From assembly GCF_016863615.1 (NCBI RefSeq), contig NZ_BOPF01000003.1, forward strand, positions 124,001-188,000: a stretch of DNA of 64,000 nucleotides. Direction: 5' to 3'. The DNA comes from Virgisporangium aliadipatigenens (lineage in GTDB: Bacteria; Actinomycetota; Actinomycetes; Mycobacteriales; Micromonosporaceae). A program made the position numbers and the translations under genes. Shown here one piece after another: positions 54,564-63,389 of this stretch. The notes under the pieces were generated by a model. It saw only the letters and a list, made by a program, of their open reading frames with translations. It was not told where the DNA came from and searched no databases. Positions within the stretch are counted from its first letter, which is position 1. Each line of letters begins with the position of its first letter.

Positions 54564-54598
54564 CTGACCGATCGGCCAGTTGCTGACCGATCGGTCAG
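54564..54598 (-). promoter_or_regulatory. Twin TetR operators upstream of the TetR-MMPL operon
   Basis: CTGACCGATCGGTCAG (54583-54598) is a perfect 16-base palindrome. A second copy, CTGACCGATCGGCCAG (54564-54579), differs by one base. Their centres are 19 bases apart, close to two helix turns, which permits cooperative dimer binding. Sites with TGACCGATCGGTCA cores are typical for AcrR-type TetR repressors. Confidence 0.85.
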
Positions 54599-54800
54599 AA
54601 GTGTGGCTCACATTACGGAGCGCCCTACCCGGCGGTGGACCTGTCATTCTTTCGCGCCTGCCCGGAGCTGTACCGAGTTCGGGCCGATCGGGACTTAAAA
54701 CCTCGACCTTGCCTGCGGACCGTATCGGCTTGATTACGGTTCGTTTTCGGCGGCCGGTCTCTCCGCTGACCGGTCCCGTATCGAGGAGGAAAAGGGAACC

Positions 54801-55766
54801 ATGTCTACGGCCACCTACGCGCCTATCAGCAGTCCCATCGGTACCGCCTCACCGCAGTTCTCGCCCTACGGCGTGCAGCCGTTCGGCGCGCAGCCCGGCA
54901 TCCACGCCGGTCCGCAGCAGCTCATCCAGCAGCAGATCGCGCAGCAGCAGCTTCAGCAGCAGATCCAGCAGGCGCAGATCCAGCAGGCGCTGGCTCAGCA
55001 GGCCGCCCAGCAGCAGCTCGCGCCCTACGGCGTCGGCGCCGACCTGATCCGCCAGCTCGCCCCGACCGGCGGCGGCATCATCGGGTCCCTGCTCGGCGAC
55101 CAGCGCCTGGGCACGCAGATCGGCTCCCAGGTCGGCAACATCCTGGGCAGCATCCTGCCGTTCGGCGCCCAGCCGGGCGTGCACCCCACCCAGAACATGC
55201 AGACGATGGCCGCCCTGCAGCAGATCCTGCAGCAGCAGCCGCAGATCCACCCGGCCCAGATCCAGCAGATCCAGGCCGTTCAGCAGGCCCAGCAGGCTCA
55301 GCAGGCGATCCAGCAGGCGCAGCTGCAGCAGGCCATGCAGCAGCAGCAACCGATGGCTGCGCACCAGCAGTCGCAGGTGGCGCCGTACGGCATCTTCAGC
55401 GACATCGTGAACACCGTCGCGCCCATCGCGACCGGCGCGTTCCTCGACCCGCACACCGCCCAGACCGTGAACAGCGTGCTGAGCACCGTGTCGAGCCTCG
55501 TGCCGTTCTCGGCGCAGCCGCAGATCCCGCAGATCGCGCAGTCTTCGCAGCTGGCGCCGTACGGCATCTTCGGCGGCGGGATCGGCAACCTCGTCGGCGG
55601 GCTCGCCGGCAACGCCATCGGCGGCGTGCTCGGCAACAGCGGCCTGGGCAACCAGATCGGACGCACCGCGGGAAGCATCCTCGGCGCGATCCTGCCGTTC
55701 TCGGCCCAGCCGCAGATCCCGTATTCGCAGTACGGGCAGCAGTACTCGCCCTACGGCAGCTACTGA
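54801..55766 (+). CDS. Gln-rich, glycine-zipper repeat protein
   Basis: A 321-residue protein with strong ribosome site GAGGAGGAAAAGG. No signal peptide. Gln is about a fifth of all residues, in runs such as [15 protein letters not shown] (about 44-70) and [15 protein letters not shown] (about 145-160). Between them lie three modules that start with APYG and end LPFxAQP or VPFSAQP (about 74-131, 194-249 and 253-318); two contain glycine-zipper stretches ([31 protein letters not shown]). An N-terminal half module ([12 protein letters not shown]) completes the set. The composition resembles prion-like or self-assembling proteins. No known family. It is first of four co-directional genes ending with a subtilase. 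Confidence 0.85.
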
Positions 55767-55778
55767 CCGGGGCGGGCC

Positions 55779-56111
55779 GTGACCGTCTTCAGCGGTGAGA
55801 CACCGCAACTGCTCGGCTACGCACCCTACGGTGCCCCGATGATGTCCCGGACCCCTGTGAACCAGGGAACGGCGGAGCCGACCACCGAGGCGATGCGCCA
55901 ACAGGCGGCAGCGGTCATCCAGCGCTGCTACCGGTGGACGGAGGCGTCCGTGCCGGTGCTACCGCAGGTCGCGGCCCTGGTGCCGGCGCTGGTCGCCACC
56001 ATCCAGCAGTACGAGGCGCAGCAGTACGCCGCGTGCCTGCAGCAGGCGCTCGCCGTTGTCGCGGTGATCGCCGAGCTGCGGGCCACCGTCCCGGCACTTC
56101 CTGCCCTGTGA
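55779..56111 (+). CDS. Small helical protein of the subtilase operon
   Basis: A 110-residue protein from GTG, 12 bases after the previous stop. The N-terminus has the APYG motif (LLGYAPYGAPMM), shared with the Gln-rich protein upstream. The rest is probably helical: MRQQAAAVIQRCYRWTEA, then LPQVAALVPALVATIQQYEAQQYA and a hydrophobic end. No domain is recognised. The shared motif suggests that the two proteins interact or are exported or assembled together. Its stop overlaps a possible GTG of the next gene. Confidence 0.72.
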   Translation: MTVFSGETPQLLGYAPYGAPMMSRTPVNQGTAEPTTEAMRQQAAAVIQRCYRWTEASVPVLPQVAALVPALVATIQQYEAQQYAACLQQALAVVAVIAELRATVPALPAL

Positions 56112-56131
56112 ACGCACGGATGGAGAACGAC

Positions 56132-56434
56132 ATGCCGGAACAGCAGTCCGCGGCCGGATCCCACCAGGGGTCCGGCCGCGGCCGGTACCTCGTGGGCGCC
56201 GACGACCCGAACGTCCTGCGCGCCCTCGCCGAGCGCATCGGCGCCGGCGAATTCGCCCCGCCCGGAGAGGCCATCGTGGTGCGCACCATCGGCGCGGCAC
56301 CGGACGTGCTCGTGGTCGAGGCCGAACCGGCCGTCGCCCAGCGGCTGCGCGCCGAGTATCCCGACCGCCTGACCGTCGAGTCCGACGAACTCCTGCCCGA
56401 ACCCGGCACCGTGCTGCCGCCGGGCCTGGGCTAA
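56132..56434 (+). CDS. Free-standing subtilase propeptide-like (I9-like) protein
   Basis: A 100-residue protein; ATG 56132 is used because GGATGGAG lies six bases upstream, while GTG 56108 and ATG 56120 lack such a site. After a short polar tail it has GRYLVGADDPNVLRALAERIG and VLVVEAEPAVAQRLRAEYPD then LTVESDELLPE. The same plan is found in the N-terminal region of the subtilase 62 bases downstream: RYLVAPLAGPG, VAVVDMEPDRAAALNG and VHVEPDLPL. I infer it is a detached paralogue of the subtilase propeptide, able to act as inhibitor or folding chaperone. I9-type propeptides have these functions. Confidence 0.65.
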   Translation: MPEQQSAAGSHQGSGRGRYLVGADDPNVLRALAERIGAGEFAPPGEAIVVRTIGAAPDVLVVEAEPAVAQRLRAEYPDRLTVESDELLPEPGTVLPPGLG

Positions 56435-56495
56435 GTGCCCGCCGAAACTGCTGACGCCGAGAAAGCTGAACCCGCCGAGAAATCTGGAGAGCACA

Positions 56496-58802
56496 ATGAC
56501 CGACCAATCGGCTCCGCGGCCCGTCGCGCCCCGGCGGGAGCGGTACCTGGTGGCGCCCCTCGCCGGACCCGGTGTCGAACTGTCGGCGATGGGCGCGATG
56601 CCGTCCGCGCCGCAGTTCGCCGACAGCGTGCTGGCGCAGCTCGCCGCCGACCCGCTGACGAACGTCCACCGCGTGATCACCCCGACCGCCGGGAGCAACG
56701 GCACGCAGCTGTCGACGTTCGGCGCCGGGCCGGGTGCGCCCGGCTACCCGCGGGTGGCCGTCGTCGACATGGAACCCGACCGGGCCGCCGCGCTCAACGG
56801 CAACCCGCTCGTGCACGTCGAACCGGACCTGCCGCTGCAGTACACCGAACCCGACCCGGGCACCCGGATGAGCTTCGCCGACCCCGGGGTGATCCCGCCC
56901 GGCGACGAGACGTCGGTGATGTTCACGGTGCTCGGCAGCGACGGCAAGGCGCTCGAGGGCGCCGAGGTGTACCTGATGAACGAGGCGTTCCCGGTGCGCG
57001 GAACGACCGGCACCGACGGCACCGTCGTCATCACCGCACCCGCCGGCGTGCTGCCCGTGCTCGCCGGCGTCTACGTCAAGCCGCGCTACGACTACTGGGC
57101 CGTCTGGCTCGGCCGCCCCCAGCTCACGCTCGGTTCCCCGAACCTGGTCACCTGCCCGTCGCTGGCCGAGACCTTCCCGGGGTTCCCGCAGCGGCAGCTG
57201 GACGGGTGGGGCCGGCGCGCCATGCGCTTCGACGCGCTGCCGCCGACGTTCCGCGGGCACGGCGTGAAGATCGGGATCATCGACTCCGGCGCCGCGAACG
57301 AGCACCCCGACCTCAACGGCCGGATCAGCGGCGGGCGCGACATCCCGGAGAACAACGACAGCGGCTGGAAGGTCGACACCGTCGGCCACGGCACGCACAC
57401 CACGGGGATCGTGGGCGGTTCGGACAACGGCTACGGCATCGTCGGCGTCGTGCCCGAGGCCGAGATCCACTCGTACAAGATCTTCCCGGGCGGCCGGTTC
57501 AGCGACCTCATCGAGGCACTCGACTACTGCATCGCCCAGGGCATGGACGTGGTGAACCTCAGCCTCGGCAGCCCGCAGCCGTCGCACCTGCTCGCCCGCA
57601 AGATCGAGCAGGCCCGGCAGGCCGGCATCGCCTGCATCGTGGCGGCCGGCAACTCCGGCGGCCCGGTGTGCTTCCCGGCGAACATGCCGACCGTGCTCGC
57701 CGTCGCCGCCATCGGCAAGCTGGGGGAGTACCCGCCGGAGAGCTACCACGCGACGCAGGTGTACGGGATGCCCACGCCCGACGGGTACTTCTCGACGACG
57801 TTCACCTGCTTCGGGCCGGGGATCGACGTGTGCGCGCCCGGCGTGGCGATCGTGTCGTCGGTGCCGCCCACCAACTACGCGGCGATGGACGGAACGTCGT
57901 TCGCGGCGCCGTACGTCACCGGCCTGGCCGCTCTTCTGCTGGCACACCACCCCGAACTGCGCACCGACGTCACCGGGCGCAACGCGGCCAGGGTCGACCG
58001 GCTGTTCGAGATCATCCGGGGCAGTTGCCGGCCGTTGGCGCTCGGCGACCCGGGGCGCAGCGGTGCCGGGCTGCCCGACGCGACCGTCGCGCTGGGGCTG
58101 GTCCCGCCGGTGTCGGCCACGCCGCCGGCCCATCCCGGGCTGGCGCAGCTCTGGACGGTGATGGCGCAGGCCGGACTGATCCCGGCCGCGATGCCGACCA
58201 CGGTCCCGGTGCCCGCGGCGGTGTCGTCGAGCGGCCTGGTGTCATCGAGCGGCCTGGTGTCGTCGGGCGGCATGACGGTGCCGGTCAGCGGCGCCTGGAC
58301 CGGCGGGTCCGGGGGGAGCACGCCGCCCGCGGGCATCTGGCCCGGCGCGGGCCCCGCGGGCTTCGCCGGCGCCTATGCGGCAGGCCCCGGCCAGGGCTTC
58401 CCGGCCGGGGCGTGGTCGGCGATCCAGCCGGGCGTGCTGTCGCCGGGCGGCTTCACCCCGGGTGCCCCGACGCTGGGCGGCTTCACGGGCGGCGGCTTCG
58501 CGGGCGGCGGCTTCGCGCCGGGCGGCTTCCAGCCGGCCGGCGGGACCGCGTACCCGGGCTTGACCCAGCCGGGCCTGGCCCCCGGGAGTGTGCCCGGTGC
58601 CGGTTTCCCCGGAAGCTCTTCGGACGGGAACGGAACCGGCACCGACCCGACGGCCGGGACCACCGACTCCGCCGCGAACACCGGCCCCGGCGTGACGCTC
58701 ACCGCGGTCACCGCGGACGCCCTCGACCCGCTGCGGGCGGCGATGCGCGCGGCCGGCCTGCTCCCGCACGGCCCGGTCGAACCGCCGGCGGCCAGCAACT
58801 GA
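56496..58802 (+). CDS. S8 subtilisin-like serine peptidase with low-complexity tail
   Basis: A 768-residue subtilase; ATG 56496 has GGAGAG. Residues about 15-115 resemble a propeptide (RYLVAPLAGPG to VHVEPDLPL), about 130-205 form a beta-rich insert (GKALEGAEVYLMNE) and 250-500 the catalytic domain: Asp263 in IGIIDSGAANEHP, His298 in GHGTHTTGIVGG, oxyanion Asn386 in AAGNSGG and Ser468 in DGTSFAAPYVTG. A tail (about 560-768) is Gly/Pro/Phe-rich with GGF repeats (GGFTGGGFAGGGFAPGGF). No signal peptide is visible, which is unusual as secreted subtilases have one. The protease may act in the cytoplasm or leave by another route. Confidence 0.9.
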   Translation: MTDQSAPRPVAPRRERYLVAPLAGPGVELSAMGAMPSAPQFADSVLAQLAADPLTNVHRVITPTAGSNGTQLSTFGAGPGAPGYPRVAVVDMEPDRAAALNGNPLVHVEPDLPLQYTEPDPGTRMSFADPGVIPPGDETSVMFTVLGSDGKALEGAEVYLMNEAFPVRGTTGTDGTVVITAPAGVLPVLAGVYVKPRYDYWAVWLGRPQLTLGSPNLVTCPSLAETFPGFPQRQLDGWGRRAMRFDALPPTFRGHGVKIGIIDSGAANEHPDLNGRISGGRDIPENNDSGWKVDTVGHGTHTTGIVGGSDNGYGIVGVVPEAEIHSYKIFPGGRFSDLIEALDYCIAQGMDVVNLSLGSPQPSHLLARKIEQARQAGIACIVAAGNSGGPVCFPANMPTVLAVAAIGKLGEYPPESYHATQVYGMPTPDGYFSTTFTCFGPGIDVCAPGVAIVSSVPPTNYAAMDGTSFAAPYVTGLAALLLAHHPELRTDVTGRNAARVDRLFEIIRGSCRPLALGDPGRSGAGLPDATVALGLVPPVSATPPAHPGLAQLWTVMAQAGLIPAAMPTTVPVPAAVSSSGLVSSSGLVSSGGMTVPVSGAWTGGSGGSTPPAGIWPGAGPAGFAGAYAAGPGQGFPAGAWSAIQPGVLSPGGFTPGAPTLGGFTGGGFAGGGFAPGGFQPAGGTAYPGLTQPGLAPGSVPGAGFPGSSSDGNGTGTDPTAGTTDSAANTGPGVTLTAVTADALDPLRAAMRAAGLLPHGPVEPPAASN

Positions 58803-58808
58803 GGTGAT

Positions 58809-58843
58809 CTCCGCCGGAGTGGGCAGGACCCGCTCCGGCGGAG
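58809..58843. terminator. Bidirectional terminator between subtilase and GH3 genes
   Basis: A 15-base stem formed by 58809-58823 and 58829-58843 (arms beginning CTCCGCCGGA and ending TCCGGCGGAG) with one G-T pair and a five-base loop lies between the convergent genes. Followed by GCGTTTC. Confidence 0.8.
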
Positions 58844-60668: not shown

Positions 60669-61007
60669 ATGATGATCAAGACAGTGCTGCACCCGGTGAC
60701 CGACCTGGCGAAGGCGAAGGCCGTCTACTCTGCGCTGCTCGGCGCCGAACCGACCGCCGACGCGCCCTACTACGTGGGCTTCGACGTCGACGGCCAGCAC
60801 GTCGGCCTGGTGCCGGGCGGCGGACCGCAGAAGCTGACCACGCCGGTCGCCTACTGGCACGTGCCCGACATCCAGGCCAAACTGTCCGAGGTCACCGCGG
60901 CGGGCGCCGTCGTGCGGGACGAGCCGAAGGACGTCGGCGGGGGCCGCCTGGTGGCCACCGTGACCGACGCCGACGGCAACGTCCTGGGCCTGATCCAGGA
61001 CAGCTGA
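60669..61007 (+). CDS. VOC/glyoxalase-like protein
   Basis: A 112-residue VOC protein: KTVLHPVTDLAKAKAVYSALLG, YYVGFDVDGQHVGLVPG, TPVAYWHVPDIQAKLSEV and ATVTDADGNVLGLIQDS. AGGAGG precedes ATG 60669; ATG 60672 is also possible. It ends 27 bases before the UvrA-like gene and probably shares its transcript; VOC proteins and UvrA-like proteins both occur in drug-resistance loci. Confidence 0.88.
   Translation: MMIKTVLHPVTDLAKAKAVYSALLGAEPTADAPYYVGFDVDGQHVGLVPGGGPQKLTTPVAYWHVPDIQAKLSEVTAAGAVVRDEPKDVGGGRLVATVTDADGNVLGLIQDS

Positions 61008-61034: not shown

Positions 61035-63389
<2,355 letters not shown>

Follow-up and report, generated by a model that had tools for sequence, protein, structure and literature searches.

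A recurring bacterial operon encoding a subtilase, a stand-alone propeptide-like protein and a repeat protein predicted to be a protease substrate

The window analysed here is a 64,000-nucleotide stretch of the Virgisporangium aliadipatigenens genome (contig NZ_BOPF01000003.1, positions 124,001 to 188,000), and the system in question is a block of four forward-strand genes within it, g1 to g4. They encode a 321-residue tandem-repeat protein that is 22% Gln and carries three glycine-zipper-type units with Gln-rich spacers between them (g1, 54801..55766), a 110-residue partner (g2, from a GTG at 55779 to 56111), a 100-residue stand-alone propeptide-like protein (g3, 56132..56434, with a possible alternative start at 56120) and a 768-residue subtilase with no visible export signal (g4, 56496..58802). 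Comparison with relatives shows a recurring operon that unites a subtilase bearing a propeptide of its own, a separate propeptide homologue whose substrate-like tail is conserved, and a repeat protein whose units mostly end in Pro-Phe. We give about an even chance to the reading that the operon holds a protease together with its substrate, whereby an intracellular, doubly locked subtilase would cut g1 after its repeats and release membrane-active peptides.

The g3 family is homologous to the N-terminal region of g4. Alignment of eight g3 proteins to sixteen g4 N-termini with hhalign gave a probability of 98% (E 1.6e-13, 71 columns), and AlphaFold2 (AF2) models of g3 (mean predicted local distance difference test score, pLDDT, 71) and of the g4 N-terminus both have the topology of a subtilase propeptide. 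Matches to the g3 model in fold searches (Foldseek, VIA-align) include the propeptides of BPN', EpiP, LicP, PCSK9, POIA1 and Tk-subtilisin. According to the available part of one report, enzyme helices are capped by Glu69 and Asp71 of the BPN' propeptide, and the capping positions are occupied by Glu and Asn in SUB1-ProM, a stand-alone protein (PMC6993865). The corresponding Glu-x-Asp/Asn pair of g3 has Glu in 47/47 proteins, with Asp in 40 and Asn in 7 at its second position. Counting as in BPN', which has a 77-residue prosegment, P1 is the sixth residue after the capping Asp or Asn. Among the 47 g3 proteins, which comprise 17 distinct six-residue tails and come in many cases from one genus, P4 is Leu in all 47, and P1 is Phe in 31, Ser in ten, Tyr in three, Pro in two (the window and G091) and Leu in one. 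The chain ends exactly at P1 in 7/47 and one residue beyond it in 23/47 (30/47 together). In the window this predicted active-site-binding segment (56375..56431) reads VESD-ELLPEP followed by GTVLPPGLG. A reading of the letters alone, made before this analysis and called here the sequence-only reading, had noted RYLV and EPD segments common to g3 and g4; RYLV is indeed in both, and EPD is present in g4 (VEPD) and in 37/47 g3 proteins, the window g3 having VESD instead. That reading also proposed g3 as a trans-acting inhibitor. As a detached relative of a subtilase propeptide, g3 is likely to be one, and a g4–g3 protease–inhibitor pair is well supported by sequence.

The g4 protein belongs to peptidase family S8 and is predicted to be proteolytic. 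Its residues 254–489 match PF00082 (Peptidase_S8) with 146.1 bits against a cut-off of 21.8 (E 1.7e-42); this is the sole above-cut-off Pfam match in the four products, with none in g1, g2 or g3. The catalytic domain (57255..57962), delimited by the Pfam match and the catalytic residues, has the complete Asp/His/Ser triad and the oxyanion Asn (D263, 57282-57284; H298, 57387-57389; N386, 57651-57653; S468, 57897-57899). Upstream of it lie a propeptide-like domain in cis (56535..56852, residues 14–119) and, between the two, a beta-sandwich-like domain (56907..57155, approximately residues 138–220, where the AF2 model has strands); the idea that this subtilase lacks an in-cis propeptide is not supported. 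In the relative L049 the beta-sandwich-like region gives weak, sub-cut-off Big_1 and CarboxypepD_reg matches. The low-complexity, Gly/Pro/Ala-rich C-terminal tail (58248..58799) varies in length among relatives. A short QSAG/FGAG-type motif in the propeptide loop, similar to the g1 linkers, was kept as a lead only: the pattern was written after the sequences had been viewed, it matched the propeptide part in 6/8 zipper loci and 3/8 others, and one match in the window falls in a helix.

The three g1 units open with APYG. Unit 1 (55017..55175), which was aligned with 20 other units, runs from LAPYG to ILPF and is followed by GAQP; unit 2 (55377..55520) runs from VAPYG to LVPF, followed by SAQP, and its zipper has decayed, with no GxxxG left; unit 3 (55551..55712) runs from LAPYG to ILPF, again followed by SAQP. 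One further APYG occurs in g2, which bears out the earlier remark that g1 and g2 share this motif. Relatives have the same layout with other opening motifs: the g1 of Lacisediminimonas profundi has five units (APQGWFGNLL...MLPFSADP), that of G057 five (VPAGFFGNLL...LLPF) and that of G091 four (VPAGLFG...MLPW). The ending [LV]P[FW] lies 39–47 residues past the start motif in 21/27 start-motif stretches, one G1435 unit with masked bases being left out; of the six stretches that lack it, four match in a spacer or leader, and the other two, both units of G627, have LPL and LPV. Out of sample, Pro stands at the unit end in 88/88 near-full units from 32 loci, with 63 Phe, 13 Leu, 8 Gln and 4 Ala at the next position, counts that are partly selected and not independent because the unit profile spans the unit end. 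Zipper units were found in 8/14 genomes that have g4, the same eight that have g3, and there at this operon only, as also in the host genome; these loci had supplied the profile, and 4/6 of the negative genomes were scored only in part. With their fixed end motif, the units fit a processed precursor better than the scaffold or condensate first proposed for g1, for which we found no evidence.

The g4 N-terminus served as the marker for finding relatives. Among 61 genomes (the host and 60 relatives), 51 have an S8-type match, and outside the host only G030 (70% identity) and G057 (44%) match this N-terminus. The window's own N-terminus as query retrieved two Streptomyces plasmid records, and a profile of the region found seven named loci, in Actinoplanes italicus, A. 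philippinensis, A. couchii, Streptomyces olivochromogenes, L. profundi and Streptomyces sp. NBC_01669 (two). L. profundi is a betaproteobacterium (Pseudomonadota) and A. italicus belongs to the Actinomycetota; the operon loci span both phyla. Wider searches with the marker gave at least 4/298 genomes of the window's order, the host included, at least 4/398 of the phylum of L. profundi, at least 2/396 of the phylum to which the window belongs (the host and one marginal case), and, in two further wide searches, at least 2/229 (one marginal) and at least 4/230 (one weak). The distribution is patchy, though locally common, with the marker in at least 7/131 genomes of the Streptomyces genus drawn, 16/107 of the genus of G668 and 30/62 of the genus of G627. 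All these counts include the genome at the centre of the search and are lower bounds, with candidates scored in part (9/97 in the 298-genome search).

A gene-by-gene layout was made for sixteen loci. L046, almost a copy of L042, and L044, which shares a genome with L039, were left out, and g1 was assigned in relatives from position, start and composition. A g1-type gene lies 5' of g4 in 16/16. The order g1-g2-g3-g4 is found in G057 and G091, which belong to other families of the window's order, so that the arrangement is more than chance and gene order is conserved; in G091, g2, g3 and g4 overlap one another by 4 bases. The order is g1-g3-g4 in five loci from the phylum of L. profundi (its own locus among them), g1-g2-g4 in three Actinoplanes loci and g1-g4 in four Streptomyces loci and G094. 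A separate g3 is thus present in 8/16 loci and absent from the other eight (g3 profile, 8–19 kb per locus, both strands), and the g1-unit profile gives the matching 8/8 split; both profiles were built from positive loci. The g2 protein is 62–64% identical to the Actinoplanes copies and 18–25% to those of G057 and G091, and is so far known from actinobacterial loci only, its search not having been systematic. The genes do come apart to some extent, g3 being absent near the operon in 20/67 loci and g2 in others; g1 and g4 stay together in all those laid out.

This synteny already makes it very improbable that g4 is an ordinary housekeeping intracellular subtilase beside unrelated low-complexity genes. 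The host genome does contain 42 S8 matches, and large genomes of actinobacteria often encode Gln-rich and repeat proteins. Against this, the set of genes is found together in two phyla, with overlapping genes in G091; g3 proteins share homology with the N-terminal part of g4 itself; and g1 units are confined to this operon in the 14 genomes searched.

The presence of g3 near the operon goes with an intact catalytic centre. In total, 67 loci were scored, 47 with g3 and 20 without it nearby; they are related, so that the counts below are not independent events. In the first set, D, H, N and S are kept in 8/8 g3-positive loci. Among those without g3, the three Actinoplanes loci have Ser for the oxyanion Asn, three Streptomyces loci and G094 have Asp for Asn and Ala, Thr or Gly for Ser, and the S. 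olivochromogenes locus has Asp for Asn and a sequence that ends before the catalytic Ser. In the g4 tree the window groups with Actinoplanes (support 100/99), apart from a Streptomyces/G094 group (100/99). The state without zipper units occurs on these two separate branches and therefore needs two changes. A further 51 loci (L060, L062, L088 and L095, already among the 16, left out) include 39 with g3; the four residues are intact in 37/37 of these that could be read. Over both sets, reading was cut short in L048 and L099, whose sequences stop ahead of the catalytic Ser, and in L130, whose frame is broken. Zipper units occur in 35/39, the exceptions being L101 and L103 (contig ends) and two G1563 systems. 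None were seen in the 12 new loci without g3, for which wide flanks were read in eight and only 1.5 kb in four. Five of these 12, all from Streptomyces (L089, L091-L094), have D replaced by G, H by S or T, N by D and S by G. In L142, a wider locus from the same genome as L089, a Gln-rich gene lies upstream of the dead g4.

A two-way rule, predicted beforehand, by which absence of g3 would mean a damaged centre, was rejected, as it failed in 7/12 new loci without g3. The 20 loci without g3 divide into nine that lack the catalytic Ser, four in which the oxyanion residue differs (Ser being unreadable in one of these) and seven that look intact. A one-way rule holds: the centre is damaged in 0/45 readable g3-positive loci, and the damaged centres lie in loci without g3 nearby in 13/13 cases (nine without Ser, four with the oxyanion change only). 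The ratio of nonsynonymous to synonymous substitution rates (dN/dS) is 0.21–0.41 in six pairs of dead g4 copies, where some frames include bases before the start codon, and 0.26–0.41 in four pairs of the L089, L091-L094 type, where none of the four catalytic residues is kept.

In the mechanism that we favour, g4 would be synthesised in zymogen form, its active site masked by the propeptide at its own N-terminus, a lock suggested by known subtilases together with the homology and topology described above. The g3 protein would act as a second, separate propeptide, its tail occupying the substrate groove to keep g4 locked in trans. The g1 protein would be a multi-unit precursor of hydrophobic, mostly glycine-zipper units, each usually ending in hydrophobic-x-Pro-Phe and followed by a Gln- or Pro-rich spacer. 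We propose that g4 cuts g1 after the unit-end Phe because most g3 tails show a like P4 (aliphatic) and P1 (aromatic); g1 and g3 would then compete for g4, of which g1 is the putative substrate. Once freed, g4 might produce several membrane-active peptides in the cell, leading to arrest or death, or the peptides might assemble elsewhere; harm to the producer cell is speculative. That the protease may act inside the cell is suggested by the lack of any visible export signal or adjacent dedicated exporter. The g2 protein would play an auxiliary part in some actinobacteria. Several actinobacterial lineages lack units and g3 and have an altered or dead catalytic centre; what remains there would be a protein of protease shape paired with a Gln-rich one. 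The most specific form of this proposal, a self-destruct or peptide-release device in which loss or titration of the substrate-mimicking propeptide frees membrane-active peptides, and which has degenerated to a dead partner in some actinobacteria, we regard as tentative and less likely than not.

The g1–g4 pairing can also be explained in another way, which we consider possible but doubtful: g4 would be a regulated protease with a trans inhibitor, and g1 an anchor or scaffold whose low-complexity repeats bind g4 or a membrane and concentrate the protease, a role near to the scaffold of the sequence-only reading. A g1-type gene precedes g4 in every locus laid out, even where zipper units are missing (Actinoplanes, Streptomyces, G094), and the pair is kept where g4 has lost its Ser, with the dead-copy dN/dS given above. 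Because the pairing persists without zipper units or the g4 Ser, the pair appears to have a role beyond cutting. A scaffold, however, would not need Pro-Phe unit ends or their parallel in g3 tails, and zipper units co-occur with g3.

The multi-unit layout of g1 could also suit a precursor of secreted antibacterial peptides of the bacteriocin or RiPP (ribosomally synthesised and post-translationally modified peptide) type, with g4 for maturation, g3 for self-protection and general export. Subtilases mature cyanobactins and lanthipeptides, and g4 has a weak PatA match. Moreover, the available part of a report on Cdz describes a glycine-zipper surface bacteriocin that kills neighbours (PMC5380434). 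However, no dedicated exporter or modification enzyme was found among the five neighbouring window genes scanned, and in a non-systematic search by eye neither was noticed to recur beside the operon and no leader was recognised. We consider this reading unlikely.

Returning to protease and substrate within one cell, several observations weigh against that reading. In the g3 fold searches, subtilase propeptides ranked level with unrelated ferredoxin-like proteins; the fold by itself is therefore indecisive, and the anatomy of the tail does more. Pfam I9 matched neither g3 nor g4 of the window with E values allowed up to 10, nor four relatives' g3 and 16 g4 N-termini with E up to 1, and we accordingly do not claim I9 membership for g3; PDB-sequence profile searches with g3 and with g4 N-termini returned no propeptides. 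Ser at P1 in 10/47 tails departs from an aromatic cut site. The window is itself a less typical member, with ELLPEP, Pro at P1 and nine further residues in its g3 tail and with a second unit that lacks a zipper; the G091 tail likewise has Pro at P1. In G698 and G668, g1 has just one zipper unit, after which come six and seven copies, respectively, of another repeat with an FWSVLKK core, and both g3-positive G1563 systems (Streptomyces) have other hydrophobic repeats in place of the zipper unit. In seven loci without g3 (L105-L111, genus of G668) the four catalytic residues D, H, N and S are all present. Confidence in the g4 model is low (mean pLDDT 51.8, with 315/600 residues below 50). Finally, cleavage, inhibition and localisation are all predictions from sequence here.

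Several side observations concern the relatives. The FWSVLKK-core copies are near-identical (six in L066:6957-8003, seven in L067:8861-10057). The gene at the g1 position in A. couchii (L045:6461-6703) encodes 81 residues, 41% of them Met, and in L144 and L149 (genus of G668) the upstream gene is Gln/Gly-rich with three QLSQQDVxEVVRQL-like repeats. G1563 has two g3-g4 pairs, each after a repeat protein and, as judged by eye, a g2-like protein or segment. Downstream of the operon lie a second subtilase in G057 (L040:10108-13362) and a trypsin-like peptidase in G091 (L063:9380-11291), each followed by a protein that by eye resembles an alpha/beta-hydrolase and has no Pfam match at E 1e-5; AAA- or LuxR-type regulator-like genes apparently lie upstream in both (by eye). 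The short contigs L073 (957-2498) and L074 (66-1808) carry remote S8 relatives that resemble g4 in their N-terminal part, beside which no g1 or g3 was noticed.

The four genes of the window are separated by 12, 20 and 61 bases, and the open reading frame coordinates confirm the co-directional block described earlier. Third-position G+C is 0.95 for g1, 0.87 for g2 and 0.96 for g4, all of which pass the codon-bias filter; g3 is missing from the filtered list, matches the g3 profile (built with g3) and has homologues. Within the first 40 residues the best 12-residue Kyte-Doolittle mean is 0.2–1.3 across the four products, and by this crude measure no hydrophobic N-terminus stands out in any of them, in agreement with the lack of signal peptides in the sequence-only reading; export of g4 by a signal peptide was rejected on this basis. 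Of the flanking terminators or operators suggested there, a TetR-type palindrome pair (54564-54598) adjoins the divergent TetR gene, and a hairpin follows g4 (58809..58843, no strand assigned; 15 nt, 93%), a possible terminator without a T tail that is absent from the terminator-scan output. A candidate box near GATTACG-T-CGTTTTCGGC (54700-54790) also lies 5' of g1 in three Actinoplanes loci (L039, L043, L045). The divergent TetR and an MMPL gene lie on one side, and a glycoside hydrolase family 3 (GH3) gene, a glyoxalase-like gene and a duplicated ATP-binding cassette (ABC)-ATPase gene on the other; none was noticed to recur beside relatives' operons, which were read by eye. The duplicated ABC-ATPase protein (61035-63389) looks by eye like a UvrA paralogue and stands beside the glyoxalase/bleomycin-resistance-type gene (60669-61007). 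The host genome is 10.3 Mb in 112 contigs. A phage or plasmid origin was rejected, with no phage matches, no confirmed relatives in viral contigs and only the two Streptomyces records on plasmids, and a defence-system label was rejected as the PADLOC matches are generic subtilase-domain matches.

In the literature searched, with most subscription papers outside its coverage, no description of such an operon came up. If the favoured reading is correct, this would be the first bacterial operon known to us to combine genes for a subtilase, for a propeptide inhibitor not linked to it and for a repeat-protein substrate, present in two phyla and in at least 30/62 genomes of one genus (that of G627). 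It would predict cleavage sites in g1, provide a natural gradation between active and dead proteases, and make stand-alone propeptides possible specific subtilase inhibitors. In bacterial gasdermin systems a protease frees a membrane-active protein inside the cell; the present operon differs in its several proposed cut sites and its trans inhibitor, and no gasdermin domain was matched by Pfam in g1–g4 at E up to 10, with filters that drop most weak matches. In systems with PatA/PatG- and QhpE-type subtilases, an S8 protease acts on a partner peptide encoded nearby. The g4 protein scores far under the curated NCBIfam cut-offs for PatA (45 of 421.05 bits) and QhpE (73.9 of 165), and also under those for mycosin (124.6 of 278.75) and IteS (10.9 of 900). 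EpiP and LicP, subtilases of peptide maturation, are structure matches of g3; unlike those systems, this operon has a stand-alone propeptide. The CspC/CspBA pseudoproteases of Clostridioides, as far as the available part of their description goes, have lost catalytic residues and kept the fold, like the Streptomyces members here, and g4 gives weak NCBIfam matches to this type. Those, however, are spore germination proteins, and we know of no Gln-rich partner for them.

The Cdz contact-dependent bacteriocins, in the available part of their report, are likewise hydrophobic glycine-zipper peptides and use a type I exporter (PMC5380434). Here a multi-unit protein is joined by a protease and an inhibitor, and no Cdz-type type I secretion genes were found among the five neighbouring window genes scanned. 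The closest parallels to g3 are the stand-alone propeptide inhibitors named in the available part of one account: SUB1-ProM (Plasmodium), TgMIC5, POIA1, the yeast peptidase B inhibitor and Arabidopsis SPI-1 (PMC6993865). Like them, g3 is small, separate and predicted to have a subtilase propeptide fold, and SUB1-ProM shares further features with it, a Glu-x-Asn capping pair and a gene beside subtilase genes (PMC6993865). The inhibitors named there are all eukaryotic (PMC6993865), whereas g3 is bacterial and is encoded in the protease's own operon, where, in contrast to those cases, the protease also has an in-cis domain and a repeat-protein partner.

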